A stretch of DNA of 64,000 nucleotides, from contig NC_089738.1 in assembly GCF_035083965.1 (NCBI RefSeq), positions 12,240,734 through 12,304,733 of the forward strand. Reading direction: 5' to 3'. The DNA is from Branchiostoma lanceolatum. Taxonomy: Eukaryota; Chordata; Leptocardii; Amphioxiformes; Branchiostomatidae. The position numbers were made by a program, and so were the translations under genes. The notes below the pieces were generated by a model. The model did no database searches. It was not told where the DNA came from and saw only the letters and a list, made by a program, of their open reading frames with translations. Shown here piece after piece: positions 41,734 to 64,000 of the stretch. Position 1 is the stretch's first letter, and each line of letters opens with the position of its first letter.

Positions 41734-41965
41734 TGTTCTTCCTGGAATCTACCTGGAAGATGAAGGCCCTCGTTGAGTCATATCAGAAGAAACGAAAATA
41801 TCTTTACAGTCCTTAAAACATGTTTACCAGTCTAACTACATATCAAGACAAGAGTTCCACGACCTCATATCTCCATGAACAATTCTATTCATGCAAATGA
41901 CTTACACATTTTCTTAATATATGCTTGGTCATAAACACCTTTATCTAACTTACACATGTTGCAAT

Positions 41966-42493
41966 ATTGACAGTACTATAATTTTCCAATTAGATTAATT
42001 ATGGTGCTTTTGCATTAATTATGCAAATAAGGAATTCATTTGCATAATTGGTATCTGTTGATGCTCCACTTTCCATAAACTACATATGTTACATGTATTT
42101 GAGTCTGATAATGGAAAACACTGCAAATATAGATATTCCTCATTAGCTATGCAAATTAAGTCATAATTAGCATAATTTGCACTTCATAATGTACATCTCT
42201 GTCTAAGCTACCTGCATACTAAGTATCATATTGACAGTCCTATAATTTTCCAATTAGATGAGATATGGTGTTTTGGATTGATTATGCAAATTAGGAATTT
42301 ATTTGCATAATTGGTATCTGTTGATGATCCACTTTCCATAAACTACATACGTTACATGTATTTGAGTCTGATAATTGAAAACACTGCAAATATAGATTTT
42401 CCTCATTAGCTATGCAAATTAAGTGCTAATTAGCATAATTTGCACTTCATTGTGTACATTTCTGTCTAAGCTACCTGTATGCTAAATATCATG
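41966..42493. repeat. Two tandem copies of a 264-bp AT-rich repeat
   Basis: Copies start at 41966 and 42230 with ATTGACAGT(A/C)CTATAATT and run in parallel through GGTATCTGTTGATG, CTTTCCATAAACTACATA and TTAGCATAATTTGCACTTCA. ATTTGCATA-type octamers are frequent. Upstream of the first coding exon of death-fold gene B; function unknown. Confidence 0.85.
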
Positions 42494-42884: not shown

Positions 42885-44415
42885 ATAAAAAGGAAGGTCC
42901 GAGGTGTTCTCTGAATCCGTTGTTCTTTATGGAATCTACCTGGAAGATGAAGATCCTCGTTGAGTCAGGCAGTTTCATTCATTCATTCATTTTATTGCAA
43001 GTGTTCCTGTATACATAAAAAGACATTATAACAGACTCAAAGAATGAAACAATTTTGGTGAAGGTATACAACATATTACACGAAAGCTGATGGTCTAGAT
43101 AACCAATATCAGTCCTAATAAGTTCAAATTTCAAAAGTCTTTGAGAGTTTGTTCCCTGATACTGTATACTACCCTGAAAATACTACATGCGTAGTTTGTT
43201 TGTACAATTGTGGTACATGTTCAGCAGGTGAGGTATCTGACCCTTACCTCTTCCCTCATGACCTCAATGAAAAGCGGCCTGCGTGCCGATTTGAGCTTAT
43301 CATGAATAAACAAAGGTTCAAACAAACAGATCTAGATCAGAATCAGCAGAAATATCTCCACAGTACTAAGCATGCATGTGTCAGATTACATAGCTCAAGG
43401 AAGTTTATGAATCTCTTGGTTAGATAAATAAGGCCATTAACGCTCGAATTAATATAGCAGACAGGTTCTCCGAAGTTTGAAGTTTGAAAAGATCTCCTTA
43501 CAGAGAGGAGTAACAGAAAAGGGAACCGCTGCCACAAATACAGACACAGACCACCGGGTTCCACATAAGCATGTCAACTCATGCTCCGAAAATTCTTCAG
43601 AACTATTTCTGCCACTGCGGTATCTTTACAATTGTGACTGACCTCTGTTGCGATATATGCCAATGATTTCAGATGAAGTATTTTACCTCCTGTAGTTTTG
43701 ATCTTCCGCATACCTTAAGAAGCTTATGAAATACTTATAACGATAAGTGATTTTGCAACGTTTGCGATGAAACAGACTGGTAGTTAACAAAGTTTCCAAG
43801 TAATTTCATCAAGAATGTACGCAAACGCGGGTTTGAAACTATAGCATGTTGCCGATGCGTGGTTGGCAGAGCTTAGTTCAATCCTTATGTAAGCATGTTT
43901 ATAATCTTCCTCATTTCAAAGGCTACGACTGTGCTATGTACAGATTGAAAAGCGGACGTCGCTTTCTCTCTTCTCGTAGCCGCTAAGTAGTATGATTTAA
44001 TATCAAGATAAGTGTTTATTTATAGAAATGTTAATTTTTTATCAGAGCACGAGCAAAGATATTGACAGGGCTGTTAATTTTAATGTATGAGCAATCTATC
44101 TAAGTTCTCAAATCATGATTCACTTAAGTACATGGTAGCGCCCCTTGCAAAACGGGGTAAATTAAATCTCGTTCAAATCCTAAGTTTAACATATCAAAGG
44201 AGTAATGGTCGGCACGGCGAAAAATGATAATTGATCCCCATTACGCAACATTAAAGGACATCGTAGAAATACAGAAACAAAGTTGTCTTCTAATGCGATA
44301 GCATAGTTAACATTTACTAATAACTATGTATAACGTTTATGAACGGGGATGAATAAAGATCGGAATGCACATTACTCATCTTCGCCCTAACGTAATTGTT
44401 TTTTTTTTTACTTAC

Positions 44416-44629
44416 GGCGCTGTCACATTCGTCGACGGTCGTCGTACGATTTTAACACCTTAGAATTTCCAAGGGGGCTGTGACAGAACCAACAGCGGAC
44501 AACAATTTAAGACAGAATATCCGTTAAAAAAAAGACAGCTGAATTTTGCAGTGCACATGCACGGCTATCCCAAGAATTTCCCCAGTTTGGGATCGTACGA
44601 CGTTCGCACGATGTATGTGACCAGACTGC
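44416..44629. mobile_element. MITE, GTCACATTCGTCG family, copy 3
   Basis: Left end GGCGCTGTCACATTCGTCG, right end ATGTGACCAGACTGC (reverse complement GCAGTCTGGTCACAT). The interior motif GCACGGCTATCCCAAGAATT is shared with the other two copies. Confidence 0.65.
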
Positions 44630-45081
44630 TAACTAACGGGAAACATAACATTTTTGCTTTTGGTAGCTTTTCTGGTGAAGAATTGTACCATACTTTACAG
44701 TGCTACGCGAATGACATGGTTGATAAGAGAAATAGATACCTGATCGCTAAACGGAAACTGGAAACTCCCGGAGACAGTGGTGCCAGTTGCTTTGAAGCCC
44801 AACTTTGCACGTCTGTGTCACTTTCACCACCTCCGAAGCACAAAAGGTCTAGGAGACTTCATTTTATGGCAAAAACACGTGATCGGTGCAGGCCAATGGG
44901 AAGACCAAATCTTTTTGGAATTTGTTTGCCTCTCCAAATCCGTATACATTGGGGCCACATGGTTGAACTTTGGGAGAAGTCTGAGCTGCTCAAGTTTCTT
45001 CTGATTACCCCCAACGAGGGGGAGAGTGCTCTCTCGTTGTCGTCCATGTTTTACATGATGTATGTGCGAACCTCAGACTGA
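44551..45081 (+). other. Unidentified 176-codon open frame
   Basis: The first 25 codons fall in MITE sequence. The stretch SFSGEELYHTLQCYANDM and the basic ENDs around VDKRNRYLIAKRKLE look protein-like, and a second frame at 44777-45004 stays open in parallel with a Trp- and Phe-rich translation, as might follow a frameshift. I recognise no family. It may be a decayed transposon ORF or a chance frame. Confidence 0.2.
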
Positions 45082-47193
45082 ATACACACATCTGATATCT
45101 GGTTTAACCAAGTCATCTGTTCAGATGACTGAACTTTGTAGTTACGCAGGCCACGGCATGTTAATTGCATGGATGACATCCACTGCAGACTCCAAATTTA
45201 AAGCAAGATTGGTAAAAAAAAGCAAGATGCCTAAATCAAAGAATAAAAGCCACAAAACATAGTGTCACAGCAACAAATCTTTTATTTCTGTCTTCAAGAA
45301 GTGCACAAAGTGATACTAGTGTGGTAGCCTAGCATGACTTAGCAACTACATTAAAGTCTACCACACTGATGTCATTTCTACAAGCACAACCAAGGCTACC
45401 ACACGACACTTCCCCATTTTCAGTATTCTCTTAGTCATGTTGAACATTTCCGAAAGGAAACAAAATTTCTTAATTTCATTTCTTTCGAATAAAAACTAAA
45501 TGCAAGCGCTGATATCATCCATGGAATTTATATTCATGGCCTTGACATGAGATGCTGAAATCAGATACACGTAGTATGGGCTAATCCATGATCCAATCGT
45601 CCGCCCGGAGCGGCAACGTTGTGGACAGTTCACTTGATAGATTACTCGTCTTCATGAACCTAATGAGATGCTGACACTGGTGTAAGATAAAACTGGACCC
45701 GTAGAACAGATATCAGATACGTTGTATTTCTGATCGTGTAGAATGGAATCGTCCACAGCAGCTTAACCGCCTAGAGACGTTTAAGCCTTTTAACCCAGAA
45801 GATGTAAACAGCAAGATATGATTTCATATCTTATAACTGGCCTCTTTCACTCATACAGTTTTTTTTGTTGTCGTTTCTTTCAGAACTAGTAATACTGTTG
45901 TGTGTACGTCAGTATATGTAAAAGTTACCGCAAGGTTGACACACGAATGAACCAGACAATTGACGAGCTCCCTTCACCTTAGTCGGGTGATCACATGAAC
46001 ATGAAACTTGAGCCGGTCAGAGTCGGCCATAAGTTCAAGCCCTCCGTGTCCTCTTCAGTTTACACGTTGGAGTGGTAAACAAAGTCAAAATGCCATGGCT
46101 GTACCCATTGGATGCCCTGATCACGTGATCATACAAAGGTTTGCGAAACTTCATCAGACAGCAGTCTTAGATAAAGTTTCGAAGTTTTACAGATGTAGCA
46201 CAAGTGACATCTATCATTCGACGAAGAAATTACAAGAAAAGATGCACATTACATTTTATCTTGACCGAATAGGCCTGGGCTTCCATTCACATTACATTAA
46301 CCGGAGTAAACCGGAGTCCCTTCCGCACTTATGCATCAATTTTGAACCTTTGTCCTGTCCTTTCCCTGACAACTAGATGAAAGACAGTTTAAATATGACT
46401 CCGTCCTTGCCTAATCTCCGTAACGAATTTGGCCATGACCCTGTCCATAACATTGTTAACAAGGCTGTTTTAGGTACTGCAAGGTTGACTGTATTTGATT
46501 AGTTGCCCTTTGTTGAATGCCCAACGCCATATCAATCAGCTGACCTGGTTCCAGGCCAGTAAAAAGGTACGTTGCTTGGTGCGACTTTTTCTTGTCATTT
46601 AACAGAAAATGTGTTAACTAGTCGAAATTGTATCACACTGTTTCTGAATATTCCGTTTCATTCGGGTAAAATTTAGAACTTATGTACTGATCTAGACAAC
46701 ATACTTTAACCCGTGTGCATAGTAAAATGTAGCATGTTCTTGATATGCAATTTTTATAGGTATTTCGGGATTTGGTGGGCGTAACAATGTCCGTTGGTAA
46801 CTGTGTGATTGATCTGACGTTGACCTGATCATTTTATTGATTCGTGAAATGTCCTTGTCATGGTTTGAAGGACATACTAGTACTGCCCGCTGTGTCTCTC
46901 AGTTCATATTTAGCACAACCTTTTAGTCGTAACTTGCGGTCGTAAACATTATATGTTTTGTAAGCTACATGTGTGTTCTGTCGTGTTGATTACTGGTCAA
47001 GTGGGAAGACATCAGAAAAGTCACTGGTCTAATAGTCCCATTTCCCATACATTAATCGAAATCATTAGAAATCTGAACAAGAAGCAAATAGAAATCACAA
47101 GTAAACCAAAAGCGATGAAAAAGGTAAAAAAATAATGAATGTAACTAGGATGTTTTATCAAATTCTATACACTCAATTGCCAATACATACAAA

Positions 47194-47268
47194 CATTTGG
47201 TAAAGGTTGTCTTGTGGTTAGGGTTGTTGACTTAGAATATAAAGGTTCTTGGTTCGAATCACCAAATG
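47194..47268 (+). other. tRNA-like sequence (pseudogene or SINE head)
   Basis: A box-A-like CTTGTGGTTAGGGT and a perfect box B GGTTCGAATC lie at tRNA-like spacing, and ATTTGGT/ACCAAAT can pair as an acceptor-like stem. The T-stem is inconsistent with a working tRNA because TTGGT/ACCAA would use the same bases. It is therefore more likely a tRNA-derived remnant. No terminator run of T follows closely. Confidence 0.4.
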
Positions 47269-49319
47269 CGGAACAAACAAAGAAGGAAATGATCTCATAC
47301 ACTTATATACACTGACAGCACCAACGCCACAACATCGTTAAAACCTCTCCTGTAACATTAACGTACTTCACAGACATTGGTTGATTGATGACAGCAAATG
47401 GACAGAAGGACGCCTAAAGCGGCTGTTATCTTAGGGCTCAGAACGCGTCAATCAAAGCCTTGGTTGATGTTAGCTTGACATGTTGTCTACTCGTCGTCTA
47501 CAGGCCGCAATGATTGACATATTTCACAGGACATGTCTACATTCCATCATGCCCAATGTCAAACAGCAGGAAAATCGGTCGGCTGACGAGTCTGCCAGCT
47601 CTAAACATTTTCGACAGTAGTGCGCCCGGTGTTCCCTCGATCATCGTGCAATTTTTAGAGATCGGCCGATGTTCGAAGGTCTCAAGCCCCGTCCAATCTG
47701 ACGGGGAAGATGTTCAGGTAAAATGAAATAGGCTAAAGTCTCTGGTGATTTTTCAAAATTTGGTGACCTTCTAACGGTCAACAAACACGACCAAACCTCG
47801 TCGACTGTGTGACGTTGTAGGAATAAAATATATAAGAGTACAGTTGTAATATTCCTTCCGAAGGGCTAATACTTCTTTTGGTACTATGGAAATTTATATT
47901 TTTAATACTAATGCATTAAAGAGTTTGCTAGACACTGTTATGTAATCCTGTCACGTCTGCTATATGCCATCCGTGTCAGTCACAGCATATCAAAATGGCG
48001 AACCTTTGACCTGGTAACGTTAACACTAAAACGGGAGATGGCCTGTAAACAAGCACTGAGGCTAAAACCGCCCGGACAAGATTGAATGGAAGGAGGTATA
48101 GTTCACGAGTTGTACATGTCAATGAGGTCAAAGTACAACGACAACTGTACGCTTGATGCTGCGAAGTCTTCGATGCCGTAAAATCGACACTTGGCTACAC
48201 GTTAACACCTCTTTGTCAGTTCAGCATCAGTAGTGTTTGTAGCGGACGGTGGATGGATTATGGTCCCTGGCGGTAATCTTCTAGCGCTGTTTTAGTATCG
48301 CACGCAGGGCCCTTTGATATGGGTATCAAATCGCTCGTGGTATGCGAGAACATTTTTCATCATTTCAACAAGCAAAGATGAGGACAAACGAGGACAAATT
48401 ACTGCGAACTTTAACATGATTGTGTATAACAGCTCTCAACATGTGACTAGCGAGGGAGAAATTTTATAATAGCAAACCTAAGGATGATGTCTTAAATTCT
48501 GTTTTTGAGTTGGTAGAGGGTATTAGGTTACAAAATAAAACTAAAGATAGACACAGAGGGATGAAATTTTACCCTTGCAAAATAGATCAGGAGTGACATA
48601 GAAACGAAAGGACAGTCAAGTTGGAAACGGTGAATATGAATAAGAAAGACAAGGAAGACATAAGGCAGAAATATTCGCATGAGGGGCACAAGGTCACAGA
48701 GTAAGACATTGACAGCTTAAATAATGATGATAATGATAATAATAATGAACTAGTTCTAACAATCACACTGATGAGAAGAAATGAAATTTATCATACCGTC
48801 TTTGATTTTTCAATTTAGATTGATAAAGAAGAAGAAGGAGAACATCACGTTATGTATATGTTTATGATACGCCGATACAAACTGTGCAATGAGATACATA
48901 CAATCAACCGCAATAACCTACACTTAATATGGCTTTCTTGAAACGAACTGAATACATGCATGGCTGCATACATGTTCGTGGGCATTTTACAATTTCTAGA
49001 TATTCGTCAATGTTGACTCATTCAAGATTTCATAGATGGTTTACATTTGCAGCATTCTTGCATAAAACATTCATTTCCCGTTACCTTTATCAAACGTGTC
49101 GTTCATATAAGACAACAAATGGCGACACAATTACACAAGAATAACACACATGCTAAAAATGCATACAACTTATACTGACAAATACTGATTCATGTCGTCA
49201 AATGACGTTGACCAATGAGAAGTCTCCATTTCGTCATAACCACCGGTCATTATCACTCCATATTCCACACTTCGGAGTTTTCCACATAAATTCAACATGG
49301 TAGTTCGCTCACTCGGTGG

Positions 49320-49325
49320 TTTATT
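49320..49325 (-). terminator. Polyadenylation signal (AATAAA on minus strand) of the patched-domain gene
   Basis: TTTATT on the plus strand, 141 bp beyond the stop codon. Confidence 0.55.
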
Positions 49326-49465
49326 CCGCAGTTATAGAAACCGACCATGTCGTATATGACACCGTATAGACCTCTTGGCTGGTGATTAACCCTATATTGT
49401 AATCCAAATATCAACAAGAAAACAGACAGCACCGAAAAGACATGAGTAACAGTCTTTCGAAACCT

Positions 49466-52400
49466 TCAGGCAATGTTAGGTAACGCGTAGCTTGCTTTCT
49501 GCTGGAGTCGTGGGTTGAAGTTATGGCGAACACTCTTGTGGTACCGCGGGGAGGGGTAGGACTGAGACCCGTGGTCACGTGTGGGACGGTGACCGTTAGG
49601 CTGTCTGTGGTACGGTGGATAGTCTGGCTCCGGCAGGCCTGCGTACATGGCTGGGTTGTAATGTCCCGTGGTAGCCTCTGGTGACTGCTGTGCCAGCTTA
49701 GTCGTGGACGAAGACGACGAAAGCTGTAAAAGAAACACGAGATAACGAGGTCAAAAAATGAAGAAGAAAACGTAATAATTATAATAACTTTATTGCAAGT
49801 CCATACCCGAGGGTTAATTGTAAACTAAGCAAAAGAATATAACAGAGGAGAACAACGAAATAACAACTATTATGAATCGTTTTCTATATGAAGGCTTTGA
49901 CTTCTTTTTTGTATGCAATGGGAAATGGACGCCAAACGTCTTGGCAGATAAACGGATTGGACGACTCAAACAAGAAGATAGTTTTTGTTGTTCGTTTTTG
50001 AAGCTGCGACAATAGAAATGAAAATATATATATATAAACAGAAATTACACAGAATTTTGGCAAGAATAATATAAGAGTTATTCACATGTGGAGACTCGTC
50101 ATCGTCCGTTGTGGGTTCTTCGATGTCGTCCTTTTTCTCTGATTGGTCCGTCGTTTTGTCGGGTGACGTATGGTAGGGCGCTGGACCAATCAGGCTGCAG
50201 ATGACAGGCAGGAAGACCAGTCCGTGCCACAGCCCGAATAAGACAACTCCGAAGAAGACCTTGATAGGAAAAATCAAATGTGTACGAAACACATGTCGCT
50301 CTATACTTGGAATGTCTTTGTCAGGGTTGTTTATTATTTCTCAAAGAATAGATGAATAACCCCCTTTGTATTTTGCAAAACACATATGCTAAAAACATCT
50401 AGTAATGAATACAGCCGTGTGCGTGTCTACATGTAGATCTAAGTGCATTGTACAGGAAGCATGATATGTTAAAGCTTAAGCTAGCATCCGCAATTTTTTT
50501 CTCATCCGGCATATGAATCGCCACCTAAGTACATGTAGTAATACTTTACCACCAGGCACATTGGTTGTGACCTAGGTAACTTGTATCACTCCGCCATTCA
50601 ATTTACATGGCAGCAAGAAGTTCAGCACACAAAGATGTCAGGAGCCGAAAATAAACGGCCACTCAGACATCAGAGTACAAAAGGAAGGCTATGCTACCTT
50701 CAAGCTACATTGACAAATCTTAGTTAACTGATTAGTTTGACTCACCTTAAAGAAGGTCTGGAAGATGTACGACTGTGAGCCGGATAACAGCACAAACGCC
50801 AAGAAGGTACTGAAGCCCCCGTTGAAGACTGCCGTCCCAATACGCAACAGGGTCTCTTTTGCACGCTCTGTGGATAAATATGCTCAATCAATATTTGGCG
50901 AGAGACATGCCAGTTTCTTAAAGTTGAATAGTTCAAATCATTTAAGCAACCATTATATACATACAGGCTAAGCTGATCCTTTATCATAACATGCCTCTCT
51001 CAGTACATCTCTTACAATTATCTTTTTTGGTGGTAGTTGTTTTCTCTTTCTAATCTGACTAAACGGTTGGAATTAATGGATAATGACTTTTGAAAGTTAG
51101 GTCGAAATGTGCATCATGACGACAACGAACCATCTCAACTGTTATGCTAGCCTTATAAACTGCACTTTTAGTCGAAATAAGACATTTTGTTCTCCTCCGT
51201 ACCGTTTCGGGTCCCGTGCACGAGCATGAAGGTGTGTCCGATGTGGGCGGAGTAGTCCACGGCCAGTCCGACCGCCAACACCAGGATGACCATAGTGGAC
51301 AGCTCTATGGTCAGACCCCAGAAGTGCATCAGTCCGCCCAGGTCAACCTGCGGATAATACAGACAGTTGAAGAACTCACTCGTTTGCAAAGGAATATGTT
51401 ATTATCATTAGGTATTTTTAAGCTGATGATAGATATGGAAGATACATTGAAATGAGCAAACATTTCTTTTAGTTCGCATCTGTAGTGCTAAGTTCATCAG
51501 ATGTTTTTCATGCAGATGTTTTTCTTTCAAATCTGGTCAAGAATTCCGTGACTTTGTACGACGTCTTTTCTTTTTATGAAACGAGATGCAAAAACCAAGG
51601 TTCTGCTGCAGTCCCAAAGAAAACCTCAACGGGCTCCAAAATCTGATAATTTCTTCGGTAGGTCAAGACCTAAACACACAACAATCCGTCTTATAATCCC
51701 AAACTCACCAGTGTGAATACAACACACAGTGTGATGTAGATACTCATTAGTAGGTCGGCCACCAGTAGAAGAGTCACCACTGCCACAGCCACCATGGCCA
51801 GCCCGATGTTCCTGTACACCTCCTGCTGAATGATCTGGGTAGAACAGCAATGGTACACGTCATGGTCGTGCGAGATAAAGGTATGCCTAGTAATGCTTAG
51901 GTACTAATTAGAAAAGGGGGCCCTGTCGGGTAGTTCACGGGCAGTTTTTTCACTTTCCGTTGGGAACCCTATGTGGCCCCAAGGGAGACCTTGTGGATGC
52001 CGGGCTATTTTTTGGGGGCCCGGCCAGGACCCCGAATCATTTTAACGCGGTACTCGGTAACAAATAGACGCCGGCGCCCCATGAGGTAATCGTGAAAGCA
52101 CCGGGAAGCCAAATGCAATCCCTTATATATAATATGTCTAAGCTGGGGTCGAACCTCTGATTGAACCCCCAGCAGCAACAAGATGACACTTAAACAATTT
52201 CTATGCGACCATGAAAAGACTACCCCAGTAATTCCCCGTACCTTATTGGTTTCGTAGCGGCGGAACTGTGTAGCGTACGGGAAGACGCTAGACTGGAACC
52301 CAGCCGAGTCTGCGAGGCTCACCACACTGTCCATGCCCTGTACCTGAGTTTCGGTGCTCGACAGTCGAATGAACTTGGCCCTCATCCTTGAGGACTTGGG

Positions 52401-55400
52401 AAACACACAAAACAAATTATCCTTTGAACATTAATCAACGGTAATTTGAAGCCGCTTAAATTTTTTTCTTACTAGTTACCTCCGTTATAATGGAGGTATA
52501 TAATTGTTTTCGGTTTGTGTGTTTGTTTCTTTGGTCGTCTTGGTGTTAAAATTTGTCTCAAATATGTATCCATCGTGAAAATAAATTTTGCAGCATGGCA
52601 GAATGTAAGCCAGTGGTGTAATAGGATACTATGGGATGTAATAGGACACTAGTGGTGTAATAGGATACTAGGAAGTTTGGATCCGAGAATTTGCGCCTGC
52701 ATAAGTGTGTAACGTGCGTGTACTTACATAAATCCACGTATCTGATTGGGTATTATCAAACTTGACGTCAGAGGCAAAGTTGTCGCCGCCAACCGGAAAG
52801 GGCGTGGTCAGGTACTCATCCAGCAACGTGTAGAAGTAGCTCTCGTTCCCAGGGAAGTCGTCTGTACAAAATAAAATGATTGTATGTGACGTCACAATTG
52901 AACAATACATGTATCTTAAAAAAACTACAGCCGTCATATTGGTGGAATGCATGGACAAAAAATGTGAGTCATTTGAAATATTGTGCTCTGTAAGTATGCC
53001 GAGGCACATAGTGCCTGAATGAAAGGCAATAACTATTCGGATAACTTCGTTATATCAACATCTACTGGTCCATACAATTTTTATCCACGCCTTCGTCCAA
53101 GATAATGTGGTTTTTTTTTTTACTTATATCTATTCCAACAAGCCAATAACATCAAAGACAGGTTATAAAGAACGCACCTGCAGTGATGCCTGAATCGCCT
53201 GCTTTCTCTGCTTTGATCCACTCCAGAAAGCCGTGGTACCAGCTGACTGCAGTTACAGAGTCGATGTACCCATTGCCTCTCAGGTTGGTGTACAACGCTT
53301 CCATCTTCTCTCGTTCGTTGTAATAGTCGGTGCCATTTTCTAGTGCCAAAGAAAAAATAATTACAAAATTCGGAGATACGTTTCTAAACAAACACTGATA
53401 ACAAAACCGGCTCTTTCGTGAATTATTTCTGAATGGCTGAATGAAAAAGTTCTTGATTTAGAACCAATGAGTTACAATAGCCGACGTTTCGGTGACCGTC
53501 TGTCAGATTCCTCAGGGCAATAGTGACTGGCTCTACTTCACACTGCAGCTAGGTGTCGCTGCTGCAGTGTGAAGAATGCGGTCCGAAACGTGACTGAGTC
53601 ACTGTTCTTGTTTTGTTCACTGCGATATACATCATGTCAAAGTGACAGAAATGTAATTCAATGTTTCAGTCATACCTATCATATCTATTTACAGGCATAT
53701 ATATTATACTATAGAATAATACATTGTAGATTGCATGTATGGTATGACCTAAGTTATAACTGTAAGCTTTAAACCACTTTTTGGCATGGAATGAAAGGTA
53801 TTTCAAATGGTGAAGTCGCAATGATGTTTTTATGTGGTACGTGCAGCAAAAATGGACTTACCTATATACATTCCAACGTCCACACCACCCTCTTCGGGGA
53901 AATACTGGAAAGACAGAAAGAGACCGATCATGACTGCCCATCACATTTAGCAGTTCAACCAACAGGAGAATGGAAAATGGTGATGTAACCAATGAAAAGT
54001 TAAAAGTTCAACCAATGAGAGAATTGCAAATAGCGATATATCACAGATAATGAATTAATGAATCAGATCAGAAGTTCAACCAATGAGAGAATGGGAAATA
54101 GCGGATTAACCAACGAGAGAGTGACTGCATGACGTAAATGGACGGGGCTATGGAATCGGTCTATCATCGTCACGACCATTTTCTTACTATGACTCTTTTC
54201 TTTGAAATATGTAAAACCGACTCTAAGACATGGTTAAACTAGTCATGATTGGATTAGTATGTATCTATAATTCAAGATCCCCACGTACCTGTTCATACAG
54301 GTTTGTGTACCTGAAGACGTACGACTCGGCAGGTAGATACCAGACGAAGTTGAAGTCCTGCTTCAGACTGTACGTGCCGTACGCCATCCAGCCTGCCGTG
54401 CCGAATGTGATCAGGAGCACCAGAATCTGAACACAGCGGAGTTGGCGGAAATTGCACTGGTTAGATTTCTGATACTACGAACTATTTGGGATCTTTTCTT
54501 TCCATGTAATCAGATAGCTTTGTGTTGTGTTTTAATCCCTGTCACACATTCGGGACCTTCCCACGACTTTGCTCCCTACCACTCCCCAAATAAGCTCGGC
54601 GCTGGGTTGGGAGTACCCTGGAATCCATTTTGATTATTTTCAAAATACATACTAGAGGGCAACCTCAACCACAAATGGCCTTGCTCATGACTAACTCCCA
54701 ACGATGGTCTGGAGAAGGTCGGAAGGCTATGTGTGACAGAGGGTGTAGACAACAAATGCCCTTATATCATGATAATCATGACGTAAGCATTATTATCAAG
54801 ATATAAAATGTGGATGCAATAAAAGAAGAAAAAAAATCACTTCCCACACCGGGAATCGAACCCGGGCCTTGGCGGTGAGAGCGCCAAATCCTAACCACTA
54901 GACCATATGGGAGATGCCTTACTCTTGACCACAGACATACTTTCTTCTCACTCTTAGCACTTTAAACATTCAAACGGCTCAGATGAAAGATATGATATCT
55001 GATAAGCGTGTTTAACACGTAAACCATGTATTAATCAAATGAATATACGCATCTGTGGAAGCGTTTTTAATGAAACATAATGTATATTTACAGACAGAAA
55101 TATTCTCACCTTTACGGGGATGGTGAGTAAGATCCGGCAGTACCATTTGTCAAAGAACCAGTGCACAAGGCTTTTGCGCGAACATCTGTAAGACAAGAAG
55201 GAACTATCACATACCAAGGAAATAGCCTATACCATCTACCAACATCTTATACTAGTAGCTAAAACATACATATAGCCAGTGTTTGTCTATCAAAACTATA
55301 CATGCATAATTGATGGTTATCGGTAACATATCTGAATGATTGCAAATTGTTACATAAAATATTTGCTGGCATTATACCTCGTCTTTGAATCTCCAAGCAG

Positions 55401-58400
55401 ATGCTGATGATGAGGTGGAAGATCGTATAAAGATTTCTGAAAGCCCTTCACTAGACAAGCCAGTTAGCCAAAAAGTATCTTTAAACTTGATATTTTAACA
55501 TTTCCTTAGAAATCATTCGTTTTCAACTCACGCCGACGGTTTGTAGTCCTTGCTGTGTTTGAAGCAGCAGCATGCGTCCCTCCTGGCCTCACGGCGGTAC
55601 TGGTCGATCACGAGCGCCCCCATGAAGAACGTGCATTGGAACAGGAACAGGAACACAATGGCGACGGCAGTGTAGATGCAGAAGGACCTCAATGCTGGGA
55701 TCGGCTGTGCGAAGGGGTAAAAGACAGATACATCAAACGGTATGATTATTGAAAAAAAGGAAGGTGAACTGTTCTTCAACAGAAAGCGGAAGCACCGAAA
55801 GCGAAATTTTCCATTGAATCACAGTTCTTATTTCGCTGCCTGACCCAATCACTCTGGACATGTGACTTTACGCACGTGTGACGTCAGCGACAGGTCAAAG
55901 GTTGTTGGAAGTCGATATCGCCTCCCGTCTCAGTTGAGAGAAGGTTAGTGTACTCTGATAAAGTCACGTGTCCAGAGCGTGATAAAGTCACGTGGTCAGA
56001 AGGCTAAAGAGGACTGAGCGATTTAATCGAAAATTTCGTTAAGTCCATTTTTATGCAATCATAATGTATTTTGATAACTAATATGAAGACTGACCGAAGT
56101 TGCCCCGATTCCAAAGGCCACCAGGTCGGTTATAGAGGTGACAGTGATAGAGACACCGGCGTGTTTCATAGCCTTGGCCGCGGCTTCTCGCTTGTCCTTC
56201 CTACGTTCTCTCGGAGTCAGGTTTTCCCAGGCTTGTACAATGATGAACATGTCATCTACTCCAACACCTGCAAGGTTCCGTGGGAAATAACATACAAGAT
56301 TTGTTGATTCTCTTGGGCCGTAAAATTCAACATGGTTATCGATGGTCCAACTGCATTATCAGCTGGACTCTTACAACTGATTGGTTGAAAATGGTATAAA
56401 CTTTTCAATAAAGGAAAAGTAGACAACTATGCACTGGTAAATAACCACCAAAAGATGGTTTACATTAGAATCCATCAATAGAAAGAGTAAAAGAAAGTTA
56501 AACATACGGTAGATGAACTTGTTGTAGGGGAGAGTATGGGAGCCGCGGAAAACTAACTAGGATAAGTTAAACAGTCATACCCAGGCTAAGTTAAACAGTC
56601 ATACTTTCAAAGTATAATTGTTCAACTTAACCTGAAGTTATCGTAACTAAAGATTAGACAGCGAATGCTTTGTGTTGTTGTTGGCTCATTGTCGCACAAT
56701 GTCAACTGACAGCTAGCTGTATGAAGGGATCAGGTTCGTTGTTGAAAATGTCACATGACTCACCTATAAGGAGGAAAGGCATGACGCTGTGGATGGGTCC
56801 GTACAAAACTCCGCAAAGGGAGCAGAACCCTATGGACGCCCCTGTTGCCATGCCAACGGCTGCCACGCCCAGCAGACCGACGTAAATCTGCATGAAAACA
56901 ATTCTGGCATGTCAGACTTCAAACTGTTCTGAAATGGTTCTACGTATCAATAGATTCATCGCTTATGCATTATAACTTACCGATTAGCTATTTTTCAATG
57001 CAATGTACAAAGACAAGATACATGAATATATAGAACTTCCGTTTTTAATTTAAAAAAAATCAGATATGCAATAGGTCCCATCGTTCCGCTCACTTCCTTC
57101 AAAACGTAGAAATGCAAAATAAAAACATCGACGGACATACAAACAAATACAGCCACTCTCCAGTTGGATGAACTGCTAATCGTGCTTGGTAGTCAAGTCT
57201 CTTGTGTTCGTCATTTGTGTTTCTGGACAAAGTGTGTGTGTGTTTAATCATAACCTACCCTGTGCTCCACCACGTTGATGTTGCCGACCATGAGGATGAC
57301 GTATGTGATGATGAGCGCGTAGCCGGCTGACAGGAGCTGAATCTCAGAGAACGTTTGGCCCCGGAAAGCGTCCTGAAAACTGGGATAAGACGAATGTGTA
57401 AAAAATGTATAAGAAGTTGTGTATGTCTCTGTCAAGAGGCAAATTTAAAGGCCATCGTAATTGCTTTTCTATAGAGCATGAAACAAACTCTAAATTGCTA
57501 CTCCTAGGCCCTAGCGACCTGTGTGGGCGTTGCTATGAGTAATCCTGCCTGTCTAAACCCATTGGACTAAAGCTAGATTACTGACCAATTATCCAAGTAT
57601 TGAATTATACAATTTCCGTCCTACATCTTAGCAGGCTTCCACTCTGCAATGGACTGTATTCACATAACTGCGGACAAACAAGAGAACAAACAAACAAACG
57701 AACAAAGATTGTAAAATCGGATAAGCCCCTACCTTCTTATGGCCCTTGGTAAGACCTCGTCTAAGTCATTGTGCCCTGCCAGGCCTACATCAATGAACTC
57801 AGCCTCCCAAGCCTTCCCAACTTCTCCTCCCTAAAGACGATATAACAACTACTGTCAGTTCATAGAAATATCATTCAGGCCAATTCTAATCCTCGCACTT
57901 AAGAGGGCTTGTCTTCAATAAGGAGGTTCATGGTTCCAACTGCTCATGCGCAGCGAAATGCATCGTGGGTAATATGTCAAAGGTGAATGCCCCTGAGACA
58001 TAAATAAGACACGGCTGACATGCACTAAAAACTGTTTACATGTTAGGGGCCTTCAGATTTTACATTATACCTACTAAAATGCATTTTTGCACATGTGCAG
58101 TTAGAACCATGAACCTCCATATACCCACATCAAATAAGTTAGGTACTGACCGAGTATCAAAGCTAGAAAGTAATAGATCATTCCATACTTGTACTCACAC
58201 TTCTCAATGCATACACCATGGTGTGTGCCTTTGCGCCGGTGATGTCCCCATTATTGTCCCGAGTTATCTCAGCTAGCACCTTATCAACGTAGTAGTCTCC
58301 TAACGCCATAAAGTGGCCAAGGGCGCTATACGCACTAGCGAGCGACTCGGACGCAGGGATCAACTCGGGGAGCTTTATTACACACGTCAGGCGGATTCCC

Positions 58401-61400
58401 AAGATGGCGAAGGAATAAAGGAACACCGTGAACACGTGATCCTAACATGACGTCATCTGTCATCATTAACATAAACCTAACATAACTATATGGCGTGATT
58501 TACTTTTTCTCTTTTCAAAACTTGAAGTGGTAACAACATGAAACTCTCATTTACGAATGAAAAGGGATATGGATCACGGAATATGCTAATCCTTCCTGTA
58601 ACATGTAAGGATGACCAAGTGTCTTAACGACAATGGGACGAAAACAGTTTCTCTACTACTTTTCTACCATTTCTGTTTAACGTAAGGATGATAACATATC
58701 TTAACTGAACTTGTCTACTTTTCTACTCTTCCTGTTACATATATAGACGATATAAATCTGAACTACTTTCCTGCCCTTCCCGTCACATATAAGGGCGATA
58801 ACGCGTCTCCTCTATTTGTTCTATCCTTGTAAGGAAGATAATGTCTTAACTACTTTTCAATCCTTCCTGTTACTGTGTTACATGTATGGACAAGATGGTC
58901 TTGATTATTTTTCTACCCTTCCTATTACATGTAAGGACGATAACGTGTCTTAACTACATTTCGATCCTTCCTGTTACATGTATAGATACTAATGTGGCTT
59001 GATTATTTTATCTACCCTTCCTTTTCCATGTAAGAACGATAACATGTCTTAATTACATTTTGATCCTTCCTGTTACATGTATGGACAATTGTGTCTTAAT
59101 TATTTTATCTACCCTTCCTATTACATGTACGGATGATGACGTGTCTTAATTGCATTGCGATCATTTCTGTTACATGGGTGGACACGAGTGTGTCTTAATT
59201 ATTATATCTACCCTTCCTATTACAAGTATGGGTGATAACATGTCTTAATTATTTATCGATCCTTCCTGTTTCCTATACAGACAATAATATGTCTATTACA
59301 TGTGCAGTGGGGATGATAACAATGTTACCTTTCTACACTTCCTGTTTCGTGTAAGGACGACAATGATTCTCTTAATTACATTTCTGCCTTTCTTTTTCAT
59401 TACAAATAAAGGCGATAAAGTTAACATATGACTAATATCAACTAATAAACTGCATTACGAAAATAGTAAACATTGGAGCTAGAAGAATATCTGTAATTGG
59501 AGTGACTAAATGTTTCGTCTTTCTAACCTATGTTTCTTCTCCAAGAGGGTTAAACTAAGGAATAAAGAACTCTGTGGTCTGTCTTACTCATATTCGTTCA
59601 AAGGAATTGTGATAATCACATACATACATGTTGTAAACATTGTTTCAATAAAATTCTGTAAAAAATGATTTCCAATTCTAGTTGTGTCCCCTTCAATGAT
59701 GCATTTTGCTATGGAATAAAGTTCTATGAGTGAGTTCTGAGGTGACCTGGGTTTTGACTGAACAGTCTTGGGGGTGGTTCAGGCGGGGGCCGAACTGCTG
59801 GGTGGTGGTAACCTGGAAGGTCAGGTGCACGAGTCGGTAGAGGATGGTCACGTGGGTGTTGACGGTCTAGATGGTCAGGTGGAGCAGGAGGACAGTCACG
59901 TGGGCTCTGGTATAGAAGCTGCACCTGTAGTGTGTCCAAGAGTGCGGCTGCTTTTGGGGAGCTCTGACATTTTTCCTGTATCTGCAGTGTGTTGGGGAAG
60001 GGTGGCAAGGTCTTGCATTCCTCGCTCACCCGAAGTGTGTCAGCATCCGTGTTTGAATGTTGGCCTTCCTTCACCTGTGGTGTGCTGGTAATCCCTTGTG
60101 TGGGTGAATGCTGATAAACTACCACAGTCTGTTTTGTTTCAGCTTCACCTTCAGTTGGGGAGCACTGATGTAATGGCACTGGTGATGGCTGGGTTTCCTC
60201 CTTCACTTGTCTGTTGGCATCTGCTGATGCTGGTGAGGGCTGGGTTTCTCCTTTCACCTGTCTGTTGACATCTGCTGATGTTAATGAAGGCTGGTTTTCT
60301 CCCTTCACCTGTCTGTTGGCATCTGCTGATGCTGGTGAAGGCTGGGTTTCTCCCTTCACCTGTCTGTTGACATCTGCTGATGCTGGTGAGGGCTGGGTTT
60401 CTCCCTTCACCTGTCTGTTGACATCTGCTGATGGTGACAGGTGTTTTTCCTTCACCGGTAGTGTGTCAGCCTTTGCAGCAGGTGACAGGTGCTCTAGGGC
60501 GTGGACCAGTGACCTTGTGTTTGTTTGTTGTTCGGTCACCGCAGGGTTGGTCACAACATTAACTACGGGAGTGGTATGTTGCAGGTGCATGACCTTGGGC
60601 TCTTGAACTTGTACACTGGAACAGCTAGCTGCCCTTCTAGAGCGTGCTAGGTTGTGTTGCGTACGATTTTTGCTGTACGAAATGCTATGAATACGTGGCT
60701 GGGCTTGTGTGGTAGACGTGGAATAATCAAAGATGGATCCATCAGGAAGGTGAATATAATGCTTACTGAAGTTTATCATTAAACCGTTGGACTCAAGGAA
60801 GGGGCTTCCGGCTATAATCGGATCGACGAGGTCTTCCACTACGATCGCATCAAACTGAAGGGCTACTTTCTTCTTGTAGAACGTAGTACAGCACTCACCT
60901 ACGGCAGAAAGTCGGCGCCCATCTGCTTGAATTGGAGTAAGATCTGTGTTGTTGGGAGAAATGCACAACCCCAAACGCCGCGCTTCATCGGCACGAATCA
61001 TGCTCGACTCTGCCCCCGAATCCAGGAGTATCTTGACCATCGCTCCCTTGTGGAAGGCTTCAAGGTTCGGTGAAGCACTTGCTTTCACTCCGCGTCCGGA
61101 TTCTTGCTGGGGAGGGGCGCCCACGTGGCGCGCAAAACTCCTCTCTTTGTCCTCGTCGGGCAAGTACGGACACGCACTGAGGAAGTGATCGAAAACTTGC
61201 CGTCCCGCTTGTTCACAAATCGGGCAGATCTTCTTGTCCCTTTTAGGTTCTTGGTTCTTCGGGCGTCGGGGGAGATCTTGGGTTCTCCAGCGCCTGTCAG
61301 GATCTTGTTGAGGGCTGGGGTTTTGGTTGAAGTTGTTGTTGTTGGAACGCCAGGTCCCGGATGTTGTTTTCCTTCCCCGCCATAATTTTTGCTCCTTCTT

Positions 61401-63532
61401 CGCTGAGGGTTGCATAATTACTGAATAAACGGGATATGCGTGAAGTACTTGGAGTCACGAATACAATCAAAACTTCTGGTATTTGTTTTGGGAATGTGGG
61501 GCTTCTTCGCCCGCTAGAAATCCGTCCCTGTTCTGAGGATTGAGCTTCTAGACGGCGGCTTCGAGTCCCTATAACTAGGTCATCTCGGCGCTAGTGTTTG
61601 TTGTTGCTGGAAATTACGGCAAGCACACAACGGAAGATCGAATCCAAATGTAATCGTATTACTGGTCAGATCAATCAACAAAGTACTTGCCTTCCTGCTG
61701 CGAGTTCAGGAAATGATTGGAGTAAGGACTCAGCGGTATTCTTCTCGAACGAAAACAGAGTTGGCTCAACTTTGAGCAAATATTACAAGATGGCGGCGCC
61801 TCGAGCTCTTGTCACTCACGTGGGACAGCATGGGGCCCGCAGAACTGGGGGAGGAAATGTCTTCTGGTTGCCGATAAGGTCGTTCTGGTCGACTCCCTGT
61901 GTCTTCCTTCGCTCCATAGACCCTTCTGTTTGGGTGTGGCGAAGTTTGGGGTCCAGGGATGACGTGTTGACCAGGCAGTACCCTCCAAGCTGTCAAAGAA
62001 GTTAGATTTCCCGGTTTACGCCATGCGCGGTGTCTTGCTCCGGTTGAAAGTTGCGACCCGGACGCTCCGATCCCTTGTTGTTTTCGGTGTGGATGGGTCT
62101 TCGTGAGTTCAGAAAATCCTAACGCTGCCAACACGCCATAAAGTGGCCAAGGGCGCTATACGCACTAGCGAGCGACTCGGACGCAGGGATCAACTCGGGG
62201 AGCTTTATTACACACGTCAGGCGGATTCCCAAGATGGCGAAGGAATAAAGGAACACCGTGAACACGTGATCCTAACATGACGTCATCTGTCATCATTAAC
62301 ATAAACCTAACATAACTATATGGCGTAAATACACAGGACTGGAAACAAAATACATATTGGTCCATGAATATCTGTAAATAATAAGAAAAGGGATCGCGTT
62401 TCCATCGTAAATCATACAATATCGTATCTACACACTGACTGTAGAGTGTTTTAGGAACAGTTGCTGAAATTTAACGACTACAGGCTTTACACTTTGTGCT
62501 ATAAAAATGAGAAAACTTCAACATTCTTACCGATACGTTCGACCAGATAGAGTATAATGTGCTTTTCATACACTACAAGCGTCGGTTAATTTGCTGGAAC
62601 TTACTGAGTGTATCTAACCTAGCCATGGGTACCATTGGTAGTATCACTCTCAATCCCTATTTCTCAGCAATAATGATATCCAGCCTAGATTCTCAAATCT
62701 CAACCTCAAAAGCAGTATCCCCTAGTTTTACAAGTACAAGTTCAAGCACGAGTCTAAATATATTCTATTTGAAAACCTCAAGATGTTCCATACCTGGTGA
62801 GGTTGACCGTGTTGACCATGTCTTTGACGTCCTGATCAGTTAAGTTACTGATGACAGTCTCGTTAAAGCTCCACAACTCCAGAAGACTTGTTGAGAAGCA
62901 AACTCCATTCAGTCTGAAAGTAAAGAGTGTGCGATATACTAAACTTAAAGACTAAATAAACACGTAAATCATAATAAAGAAGAACAGTTTCGTGAATATC
63001 AGAGTTAAGTTTCCTTCAAGAGAGCTTAACTTGGATTCTTCCTCTGAAACGTTTTGCATCCTACTATGCCAGGCCCGCCGCTTGTATGTATCAAGCAACG
63101 ATCGTGGCGTATCGGCCTATGATCCGTCGTTCTCGCTGCGCTAGCTCTGGTCAGCCGTAATCAGCCAACCACGTCGTCGCCTACAGCCAAGGTAAATCCC
63201 CCCCCCCCCCAACAGCAGGAGAGGGAGTATTGGATTGGTTTAGGGCCGGCCAGCGCTAGCGTGGCAAAAAGGACGGATCGTAGCCCGGTACGCCAGGGTA
63301 GTTGCTTGGTATTGCACAAGCGACTGGCCTGGCATGAGAGCTAGGTAACTGAGCTTTTGTAATGCTATAGCTACTGCCTCTGAATAAATGAGAATATTAA
63401 TCAAAGTCGAAGACATACATGTAGCTACCTCTCTTGAGTAAATAAAAGATGTACTCACTTGTAACAAATGTTCTCCCAGGACGGAACTGTTGCAACATTT
63501 ATTTCCTTGACCTTCTTGTCAATTTCATACAT
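49466..63532 (-). CDS. Patched domain-containing (PTCHD-like) RND-type membrane protein, 5'-partial, one exon interrupted
   Basis: Exons in transcript order: 63532-63459, 62913-62794, 62338-62326 joined to 58300-58199 (split by an LTR element), 57830-57733, 57379-57259, 56887-56764, 56267-56095, 55704-55532, 55185-55110, 54426-54289, 53904-53862, 53339-53178, 52861-52728, 52394-52242, 51834-51709, 51347-51203, 50867-50746, 50259-50086, 49723-49466. Phases agree at every junction, giving 842 residues in the window. The first exons lie beyond the right edge. An ectodomain with Cys-containing WENICYK and NGVCF is followed by a sterol-sensing-type domain with GVGVDDMFIIV, then a second ectodomain, then GLAVDYSAHIGH in the second RND half. 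The last helices end GLWHGLVFLPVI. The tail is acidic, then Ser/Pro/His-rich. The paired GxxxD-type motifs are the RND/Patched signature. It is probably a 12-TM transporter-like protein; ligand unknown. Confidence 0.9.
53486..53522 (-). ncRNA. Candidate hammerhead motif (Penelope-type remnant)
   Basis: On the minus strand CTGAGGA (53509-53515) is followed by a short stem II TGAC/GTCA, then GAAA, palindromic ACGT and C, then GGC pairing with the upstream GCC. The conserved core bases are intact, but stems I and II are short. It lies in an intron of the patched-domain gene, next to a small inverted CTGCAG-rich hairpin (53541-53573). Confidence 0.4.
53953..54126. repeat. Three degenerate tandem copies around AGTTCAACCAATGAGAGAATG
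   Basis: CAACCAACAGGAGAATGGAAA, CAACCAATGAGAGAATTGCAA and CAACCAATGAGAGAATGGGAA recur at uneven 60-75-bp spacing in an intron of the patched-domain gene. Confidence 0.6.
54688..54750 (+). repeat. Single copy of the 63-bp repeat found in the glutathione reductase intron
   Basis: CTCCCAACGATGGTCTGGAG followed by AAGGTCGGAAGGCTATG matches the tandem unit at 16734-16925. Confidence 0.7.
54841..54912 (-). tRNA. tRNA-Glu (anticodon CTC)
   Basis: 72 nt, read on the minus strand. Acceptor TCCCATA pairs with TGTGGGA (one T-G wobble), discriminator A. Box A TGGTCTAGTGGTTAGGAT and box B GGTTCGATTCC are intact. The anticodon stem TGGCG/CGCCA encloses the loop CTCTCAC, giving anticodon CTC (complement of plus 54877-54879). 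The T-stem is CCGGG/CCCGG. A run of eight Ts follows the 3' end on the minus strand (near 54826-54834), a normal Pol III terminator. It is nested in an intron of the patched-domain gene in the same orientation. Confidence 0.95.
55852..55977. repeat. Inverted repeat with 19-bp arms
   Basis: CTCTGGACATGTGACTTTA (55852-55870) and TAAAGTCACGTGTCCAGAG (55959-55977) are reverse complements with one mismatch. A further TAAAGTCACGTGG follows at 55984. Probably a small foldback element in an intron of the patched-domain gene. Confidence 0.6.
58303..58496 (-). repeat. 3' LTR of the gag-protease element
   Basis: 194 bp, identical to 62133-62326, with 8-bp inverted ends. Its exon-side end adjoins patched-domain coding sequence, and the LTR happens to be open in that frame for 36 codons. 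An AG at 58335-58336 (minus strand CGCTCGCTAG) has the phase needed to act as a replacement splice acceptor. Confidence 0.9.
58506..58519 (-). other. Candidate polypurine tract
   Basis: The minus strand reads GAAAAGAGAAAAAG about ten bases upstream of the 3' LTR, the expected site for plus-strand priming of an LTR retrotransposon. Confidence 0.6.
58585..59420. repeat. Degenerate minisatellite inside the LTR element, about 50-bp unit in alternating pairs
   Basis: Units contain CCTTCCT(G/A)TTACATGTA, then GGACGATAACGTGTCTTAA-like sequence. Two types alternate (CGATCCTTCCTGTTACATG and CTACCCTTCCTATTACATG), so the effective period near 58900-59250 is about 100 bp. Non-coding. Confidence 0.85.
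59724..61415 (-). CDS. Gag-like zinc-knuckle plus retropepsin protein, 563 aa
   Basis: Intact single-exon ORF. Residues 1-60 are basic and Asn/Pro/Arg-rich. A zinc-knuckle-like C64-x2-C67-x9-H77-x4-C82 follows. An aspartyl protease domain starts near residue 125 with the active-site LLDSGAESSMI (D132), and later IIAGSPFLESNGL gives the second half of the retropepsin fold. Residues of about 325-410 are five tandem copies of a 17-residue unit (SADVNRQVKGETQPSPA and variants). The C-terminus is Pro- and His-rich. The knuckle and protease resemble Gypsy-type gag-pol of marine invertebrates; polymerase domains are missing. No capsid fold could be judged by eye. It is the sole long ORF of the surrounding LTR element. 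Domestication is possible, but the young LTRs favour a mobile element. Confidence 0.85.
   Translation of the reverse strand: MQPSAKKEQKLWRGRKTTSGTWRSNNNNFNQNPSPQQDPDRRWRTQDLPRRPKNQEPKRDKKICPICEQAGRQVFDHFLSACPYLPDEDKERSFARHVGAPPQQESGRGVKASASPNLEAFHKGAMVKILLDSGAESSMIRADEARRLGLCISPNNTDLTPIQADGRRLSAVGECCTTFYKKKVALQFDAIVVEDLVDPIIAGSPFLESNGLMINFSKHYIHLPDGSIFDYSTSTTQAQPRIHSISYSKNRTQHNLARSRRAASCSSVQVQEPKVMHLQHTTPVVNVVTNPAVTEQQTNTRSLVHALEHLSPAAKADTLPVKEKHLSPSADVNRQVKGETQPSPASADVNRQVKGETQPSPASADANRQVKGENQPSLTSADVNRQVKGETQPSPASADANRQVKEETQPSPVPLHQCSPTEGEAETKQTVVVYQHSPTQGITSTPQVKEGQHSNTDADTLRVSEECKTLPPFPNTLQIQEKCQSSPKAAALLDTLQVQLLYQSPRDCPPAPPDHLDRQHPRDHPLPTRAPDLPGYHHPAVRPPPEPPPRLFSQNPGHLRTHS
60185..60442 (-). 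repeat. 51-bp in-frame coding repeat, five copies
   Basis: The plus strand shows repeats of CTGTTGACATCTGCTGATG with GGCTGGGTTTCTCC. They encode the 17-residue repeats of the gag-protease protein. Copies differ by a few substitutions and none is frameshifted. Confidence 0.85.
62117..62130 (-). other. Candidate primer-binding site
   Basis: The minus strand reads TGGCAGCGTTAGGA starting three bases after the 5' LTR. It begins with TGG, the complement of a tRNA CCA end, at the expected location. The matching tRNA was not identified. Confidence 0.5.
62133..62326 (-). repeat. 5' LTR of the gag-protease element
   Basis: Identical over 194 bp to 58303-58496. On the minus strand it follows directly on the 10-13 bp first piece of the interrupted patched-domain exon. 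Confidence 0.9.
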
Positions 63533-63795
63533 CTGAAAGAACCGAGGTCAGACAACGCCATTTTCAATGTTAGCTCCCAATTCATTTCCAATGCCTTTTT
63601 TGTTCATTAGCACGCATTACTGTCAAAACCAATCAAACAAACAATAACATAACATAACATAACAAAGCGTTGGTTACATCTTTTGTCTCTGCATCATTGA
63701 CACGACAGGTCATGCAATCAAACTAGCTCATATGTGTACAATACATTTTAGTATACTACTATACTTTTTCAGATCATTCATAGGTTATGTTATGA

Positions 63796-63870
63796 TATAT
63801 ATATCATATATATATATATAGAGAGAGAGAGAGAGGGATTAAGAGAGAGATAAAGAGAGAGAGAGGGAGG

Positions 63871-63933
<63 letters not shown>

Positions 63934-63937
63934 AGAA
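63796..63937. repeat. TA then GA microsatellite
   Basis: A short TATA run passes into about 120 bp of GA dinucleotides with GGGA interruptions, at the right edge of the window. Unique sequence at 63533-63795 shows no exon. Confidence 0.95.
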
Positions 63938-64000
63938 AACTGGAGTCCGTGCTACTTTTATCATATGATTTTATTCATCTATTTCGCACACATACCCCTC

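Follow-up and report, generated by a model that had tools for sequence, protein, structure and literature searches.

A candidate non-autonomous Troyka LTR retrotransposon within a coding exon of a Patched/SSD gene of Branchiostoma lanceolatum

The window analysed here, 64,000 nucleotides of Branchiostoma lanceolatum (NCBI RefSeq assembly GCF_035083965.1, contig NC_089738.1, positions 12,240,734 to 12,304,733), carries on its minus strand a Patched/SSD gene whose third visible exon is split by a segment bounded by direct repeats. The locus raises the question of what this segment is, how it came to lie in a coding exon, and whether the gene could still function around it. A single reading, which we hold with high confidence, answers all three: a non-autonomous Troyka LTR retrotransposon, mobilised by a helper, inserted at a TTA in the exon and left an allele that most likely has lost its function. 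The features concerned are listed in Table 1.

Table 1. Features of the host gene and of the inserted element, in positions of the window
Feature	Position	Strand	Description
Patched/SSD host gene, visible part	50086..63532	-	Hand model of 18 exons and 17 introns; end of last exon uncertain
Upstream host exon	62794..62913	-	Phase compatible with the joined exon
5' piece of split exon	62326..62338	-	13 nt including TTA; preceded by acceptor TTTTGTTTCCAG
3' piece of split exon	58199..58300	-	102 nt; followed by donor GTGAGT
Target site duplication, copy 1	62326..62328	-	TTA, read from the sequence; in phase
5' LTR	62134..62325	-	192 bp, CGCCA...TGGCG; contains sense AATAAA (LTR position 117), TGACGTCA (position 41) and CACGTG
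Primer binding site	62113..62133	-	16/21 to the generic tRNA-Leu(AAG/UAG) 3' end, at offset 0 from the LTR
ORF, 563 aa, open	59724..61415	-	C2HC finger, then retropepsin, then tail with 17-aa repeats
Five tandem units of 51 bp (17 aa) in ORF tail	60179..60433	-	Found as tandem repeats
Minisatellite	58876..59294	-	Periods of about 49, 99 and 196 bp; 3' part of element, past the ORF
Purine run GAAAAGAGAAAAAG, possible polypurine tract	58503..58516	-	14 nt, read by eye; ends 7 nt short of the 3' LTR, not abutting it
3' LTR	58304..58495	-	Same sequence as the 5' LTR, without a difference; terminal six bases ATGGCG
Target site duplication, copy 2	58301..58303	-	TTA, read from the sequence

The exons of the host gene were placed by hand from splice signals and reading frame, and the 5' end of the gene falls outside the window. 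All 17 introns of this model are of the GT-AG type, and the 18 exons join into one frame of 757 residues with no stop, the other two frames having 34 and 27 stops. In raw minus-strand frames with stops read through, Pfam matched PF02460 (Patched SSD, 7e-21) and PF12349 (sterol-sensing, 1.7e-22), and the joined protein matched PF12349 (5.5e-43), PF02460 (1.3e-40) and MMPL (2.2e-6), its second half giving a weak ACR_tran match (2.5e-4) under the cut-off of that family. The best solved structures were NPC1 (4.7e-58) and PTCH1 (2.2e-57), NPC1 aligning across both halves; in the three structure alignments shown the match starts at residue 108, downstream of the split exon and of the SPV-type segment that the original prediction placed in it. 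The protein therefore has the sterol-sensing domain and the two RND halves of the Patched/NPC1 type. Pfam gave no matches on the minus strand of 44002-54000, although eight modelled exons fall there; these are based on the open frame, the splice sites and the NPC1 alignment. No second copy of the gene was found in the window (E up to 1e-3). One intron of the Patched/SSD gene contains a tRNA-Glu (CTC) gene (54841-54912, minus) that runs in the gene's direction, and the intron directly after the split exon holds a MITE-like pair (57918-58122) of 35-nt inverted arms, 89% complementary and 135 nt apart, with no clear duplication. Elsewhere in the window there are a 5.6-kb tandem array (1178-6813) with units of about 191/215 bp based on the 12-bp motif AGGCCGCAATCG, and a 263-bp unit in two tandem copies with 92% matches (41964-42492).

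The original prediction was that two identical 194-bp direct repeats flank a young LTR element lying in a coding exon of the Patched-domain gene. The repeats (58303-58496 and 62133-62326, 3830 bp from start to start) did match at 100%, and a 23-nt piece of them, searched with up to 3 mismatches, occurred in the window at these two sites only, as compared with 0 matches in 100 shuffles. Comparison of the whole element with the window by blastn (E up to 1e-3) returned the element itself and its own internal repeats, and no further copy. At either end of the 194-bp repeat the outermost base is best explained as a coincidental match, so that the LTR proper, CGCCATATAG...CTTTATGGCG, measures 192 bp and the element 4022 bp, with an internal part of 3638 bp; we set the boundaries there because an LTR ending in TGGCG places the best primer match at offset 0. 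The ends of the 192-bp unit form an inverted repeat of 11 bp with one mismatch.

Both outer flanks of the element carry TTA, as in a 3-bp target site duplication. On the minus strand the acceptor reads TTTTGTTTCCAG and is directly followed by TCCTGTGTATTTA at the start of the exon. When the element and one TTA were removed, the two pieces gave an exon of 115 nt in phase with both neighbours, its length and its fit to the upstream exon being as had been proposed; a 3-nt duplication is frame-neutral, so the frame alone cannot tell one TTA from two and is no proof of duplication. The sense strand of the element is the minus strand, the same as that of the surrounding gene. An LTR element within the coding exon is well supported by the LTRs, the target duplication, the primer site, the retropepsin ORF and the open gene around it.

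The sequence just inside the 5' LTR begins with TGTTGGCAGCG. A scan with 25 generic tRNA ends at 6 offsets ranked tRNA-Leu(AAG/UAG) highest, and the runners-up, scoring 14 and 13 of 21, were leucine tRNAs as well. The score of 16/21 was reached at one position only among the 127,958 on both strands of the window. This suggests that the element was primed by tRNA-Leu. Neither "primer" nor "tRNA" occurs as a word in the main text of the Troyka survey used below (PMC12440569).

The 563-codon ORF is the longest sense ORF of the element; when the internal part was shuffled 500 times by single bases, the maximum was 172 codons. Its zinc finger (residues 64-82) has the spacing CX2CX9HX4C, and residues 124-208 matched the retropepsin family PF13975 (E 7.8e-6) with DSG at residue 132, the 26.8 bits being slightly under the Pfam gathering cut-off of 28.2. 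Retropepsin was the sole retroelement family matched by Pfam in the six frames covered, namely three minus frames over 54001-63999 and three plus frames over the element. No RT, RNase H, integrase or capsid was recognised in these frames with stops read through and E up to 0.1, although a strongly diverged capsid could escape such a search. The element hence does not encode, in recognisable form, the RT, RNase H and integrase of an autonomous element. Among the five 51-bp units of the ORF tail, codon-pair differences were 16 synonymous to 22 other in the ORF frame, the other frames having 9/32 and 4/34; because the pairs are not statistically independent, this synonymous excess can do no more than hint at past constraint on the tail. 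Among solved structures, none matched the ORF (E up to 1). Relatives of the ORF were sought in viral contigs (8 stretches fitting a pattern, 0 confirmed), those of its first 240 residues plus the preceding codon in genome contigs (33 stretches, 0 confirmed), and the first 20 LTR bases in viral contigs (0 matches), all in collections with few or no animal genomes.

Troyka is a rare retrotransposon family found in aquatic animals, first reported, it is said, by Kapitonov and Jurka in 2008. In the available part of the survey by Kojima (2025; PMC12440569), its marks are CG...CG LTR ends (starting with CGCCA in 573/603 and ending with TGGCG in 522/603), duplications of 3 bp with one exception of 4 bp, a CX2CX8-10HX4C finger, LTRs of 100-400 bp and internal parts of 1553-7691 bp. 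These marks can be read without RT, and the present element has all four of them: the termini, the 3-bp duplication, the finger spacing and the lengths of LTR and internal part. We file it under Troyka because its CGCCA/TGGCG ends, the TTA duplication and the CX2CX9HX4C finger agree with the published signature, an assignment that rests on these features, whereas the group itself is defined by its RT tree. The available text of the same survey counts 70 non-autonomous Troyka elements, of which sea urchins contribute 62, and gives no instance from terrestrial animals (PMC12440569). Compared with the Troyka elements described there, the present one has no recognised RT, RNase H or integrase, has a single ORF with finger, retropepsin and repeat tail, and lies in a coding exon. 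In the part of the Troyka literature that we covered, no exon insertion was seen. The family name and the non-autonomous nature of the element are additions to the original prediction. As far as the available text of another study goes, Kuafuorterviruses were first found in Branchiostoma floridae and include the Troyka elements of this species and of Nematostella vectensis; they are defined by RT, whereas no RT is recognised in the present copy (PMC11673190).

A non-autonomous element of the usual Gypsy (Metaviridae) type, though with atypical ends, would explain why the protease matches the general gag-asp_proteas model, and Troyka was originally classed under Gypsy according to the available part of the survey (PMC12440569). 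The same text, however, gives Gypsy, Copia and BEL elements TG...CA ends and duplications of 4-6 bp, with a CX2CX4HX4C finger outside Troyka (PMC12440569), whereas the present element has CG...CG ends, 3 bp and a long-spaced finger; with three Troyka signatures concurring, we consider a Gypsy origin very unlikely. The identity of the two repeats could also come from an assembly in which two haplotypes or copies were joined, no single molecule carrying an insertion. From such a joint one would expect neither TTA matched on both sides nor a primer site starting right where the LTR ends, and neither a retropepsin ORF nor an exon whose pieces rejoin in phase; we regard it as highly improbable. Two independent short DNA transposons, MITE-like with TWA targets, around unrelated DNA would account for the 11-bp inverted ends and the outer TTA, which resemble those of such elements. 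The inner boundaries (TGA and ACA) lack a matching duplication, and the primer site and the retropepsin ORF share one sense, which makes this composite scarcely credible.

Under the Troyka reading, an RNA copy of the element would have been primed by tRNA-Leu at the site adjoining the 5' LTR and reverse transcribed by enzymes that an autonomous Troyka supplied in trans from another genomic locus. Cutting of the third visible Patched/SSD exon at TTA, with a stagger of 3 bp, would then have let the copy integrate in the same direction as the gene. TR-GAG and similar plant LTR elements, which are non-autonomous, lack RT and IN and depend on helpers, are comparable; they differ from the present element in superfamily, termini and hosts.

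The absence of differences between the repeats (0/194) sets a 95% bound of 1.5% on their divergence. If 2-4e-9 substitutions per site and year are assumed, the insertion would be at most 1.9-3.8 My old, and the looser bound set by the intactness of the host frame and splice sites is 4.8-9.5 My. "Young" is a fair description and a recent insertion is plausible; LTR identity is a weak clock, however, and current activity would go beyond what it supports.

As to the host allele, the insertion had been expected to damage the gene. Read-through from the host exon meets a stop at 62298, after nine LTR codons, which is codon 79 of the visible frame, and skipping of the exon shifts the frame and leads to an early stop. 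A host transcript of the occupied allele would also carry the sense AATAAA of the LTR. Given the stop, this AATAAA and the frameshift on skipping, the allele would most likely be one of loss of function, the effect on expression being predicted from sequence; we conclude that it is probably disabled. The expected damage is qualified by two weak in-frame cryptic acceptors. By comparison, an LTR inserted in bovine APOB also causes a defect, cholesterol deficiency, as described in the available part of that report (PMC9355974); there the host is a mammal and the LTR an endogenous retroviral one.

The two acceptors would permit a tolerated insertion, in which 62794 is spliced to 58325 or 58334 in the 3' LTR, the element, still a Troyka, becomes intronic and a few residues are replaced in frame. 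Among the 23 AG sites tried in 58600-58250, these two preserve the frame as far as the model extends, and the junction from 62794 to 58334 is one that the original prediction had named. On a scoring model built from 18 sites only, 58325 scored 2.7 and 58334 scored -1.3, the former falling inside the leave-one-out range of the 18 acceptors that the gene itself uses (-1.7 to 11.6). Neither is strong, as among 879 AGs 58325 ranks within the best 16% and 58334 within the best 46%, and the sense AATAAA of the 5' LTR lies upstream of both. We therefore consider a tolerated insertion unlikely. Exact splicing-out of the element was rejected, as the AG at 58299 breaks the frame.

It was also noticed that the ATG within the terminal ATGGCG of the 3' LTR is the only one starting past LTR position 48, i.e. 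in the last 144 bases. It is the first codon of the six bases that precede the integration joint, and from it the reading continues in frame into the host exon and on for 691 residues, as far as the model reaches. The Troyka LTR might then act as a portable start signal, and transcripts driven by it would encode a Patched protein with a shortened N-terminus and 691 residues or more, in which case the allele would have been rewired rather than lost; TGGCG is a common Troyka terminus and ATGGCG is described here for this LTR alone, and we think such rewiring quite unlikely.

On the reading that we prefer, a Troyka insertion lies in a coding exon of a gene that is open in all other respects, and probably disables the allele that carries it. 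An open retropepsin ORF accompanied by no recognisable RT or integrase raises the question of whether elements of this kind supply a protein or are merely carried. Should empty alleles exist alongside occupied ones, the two would constitute a natural test of the effects of Troyka, a little-studied superfamily, on host genes.
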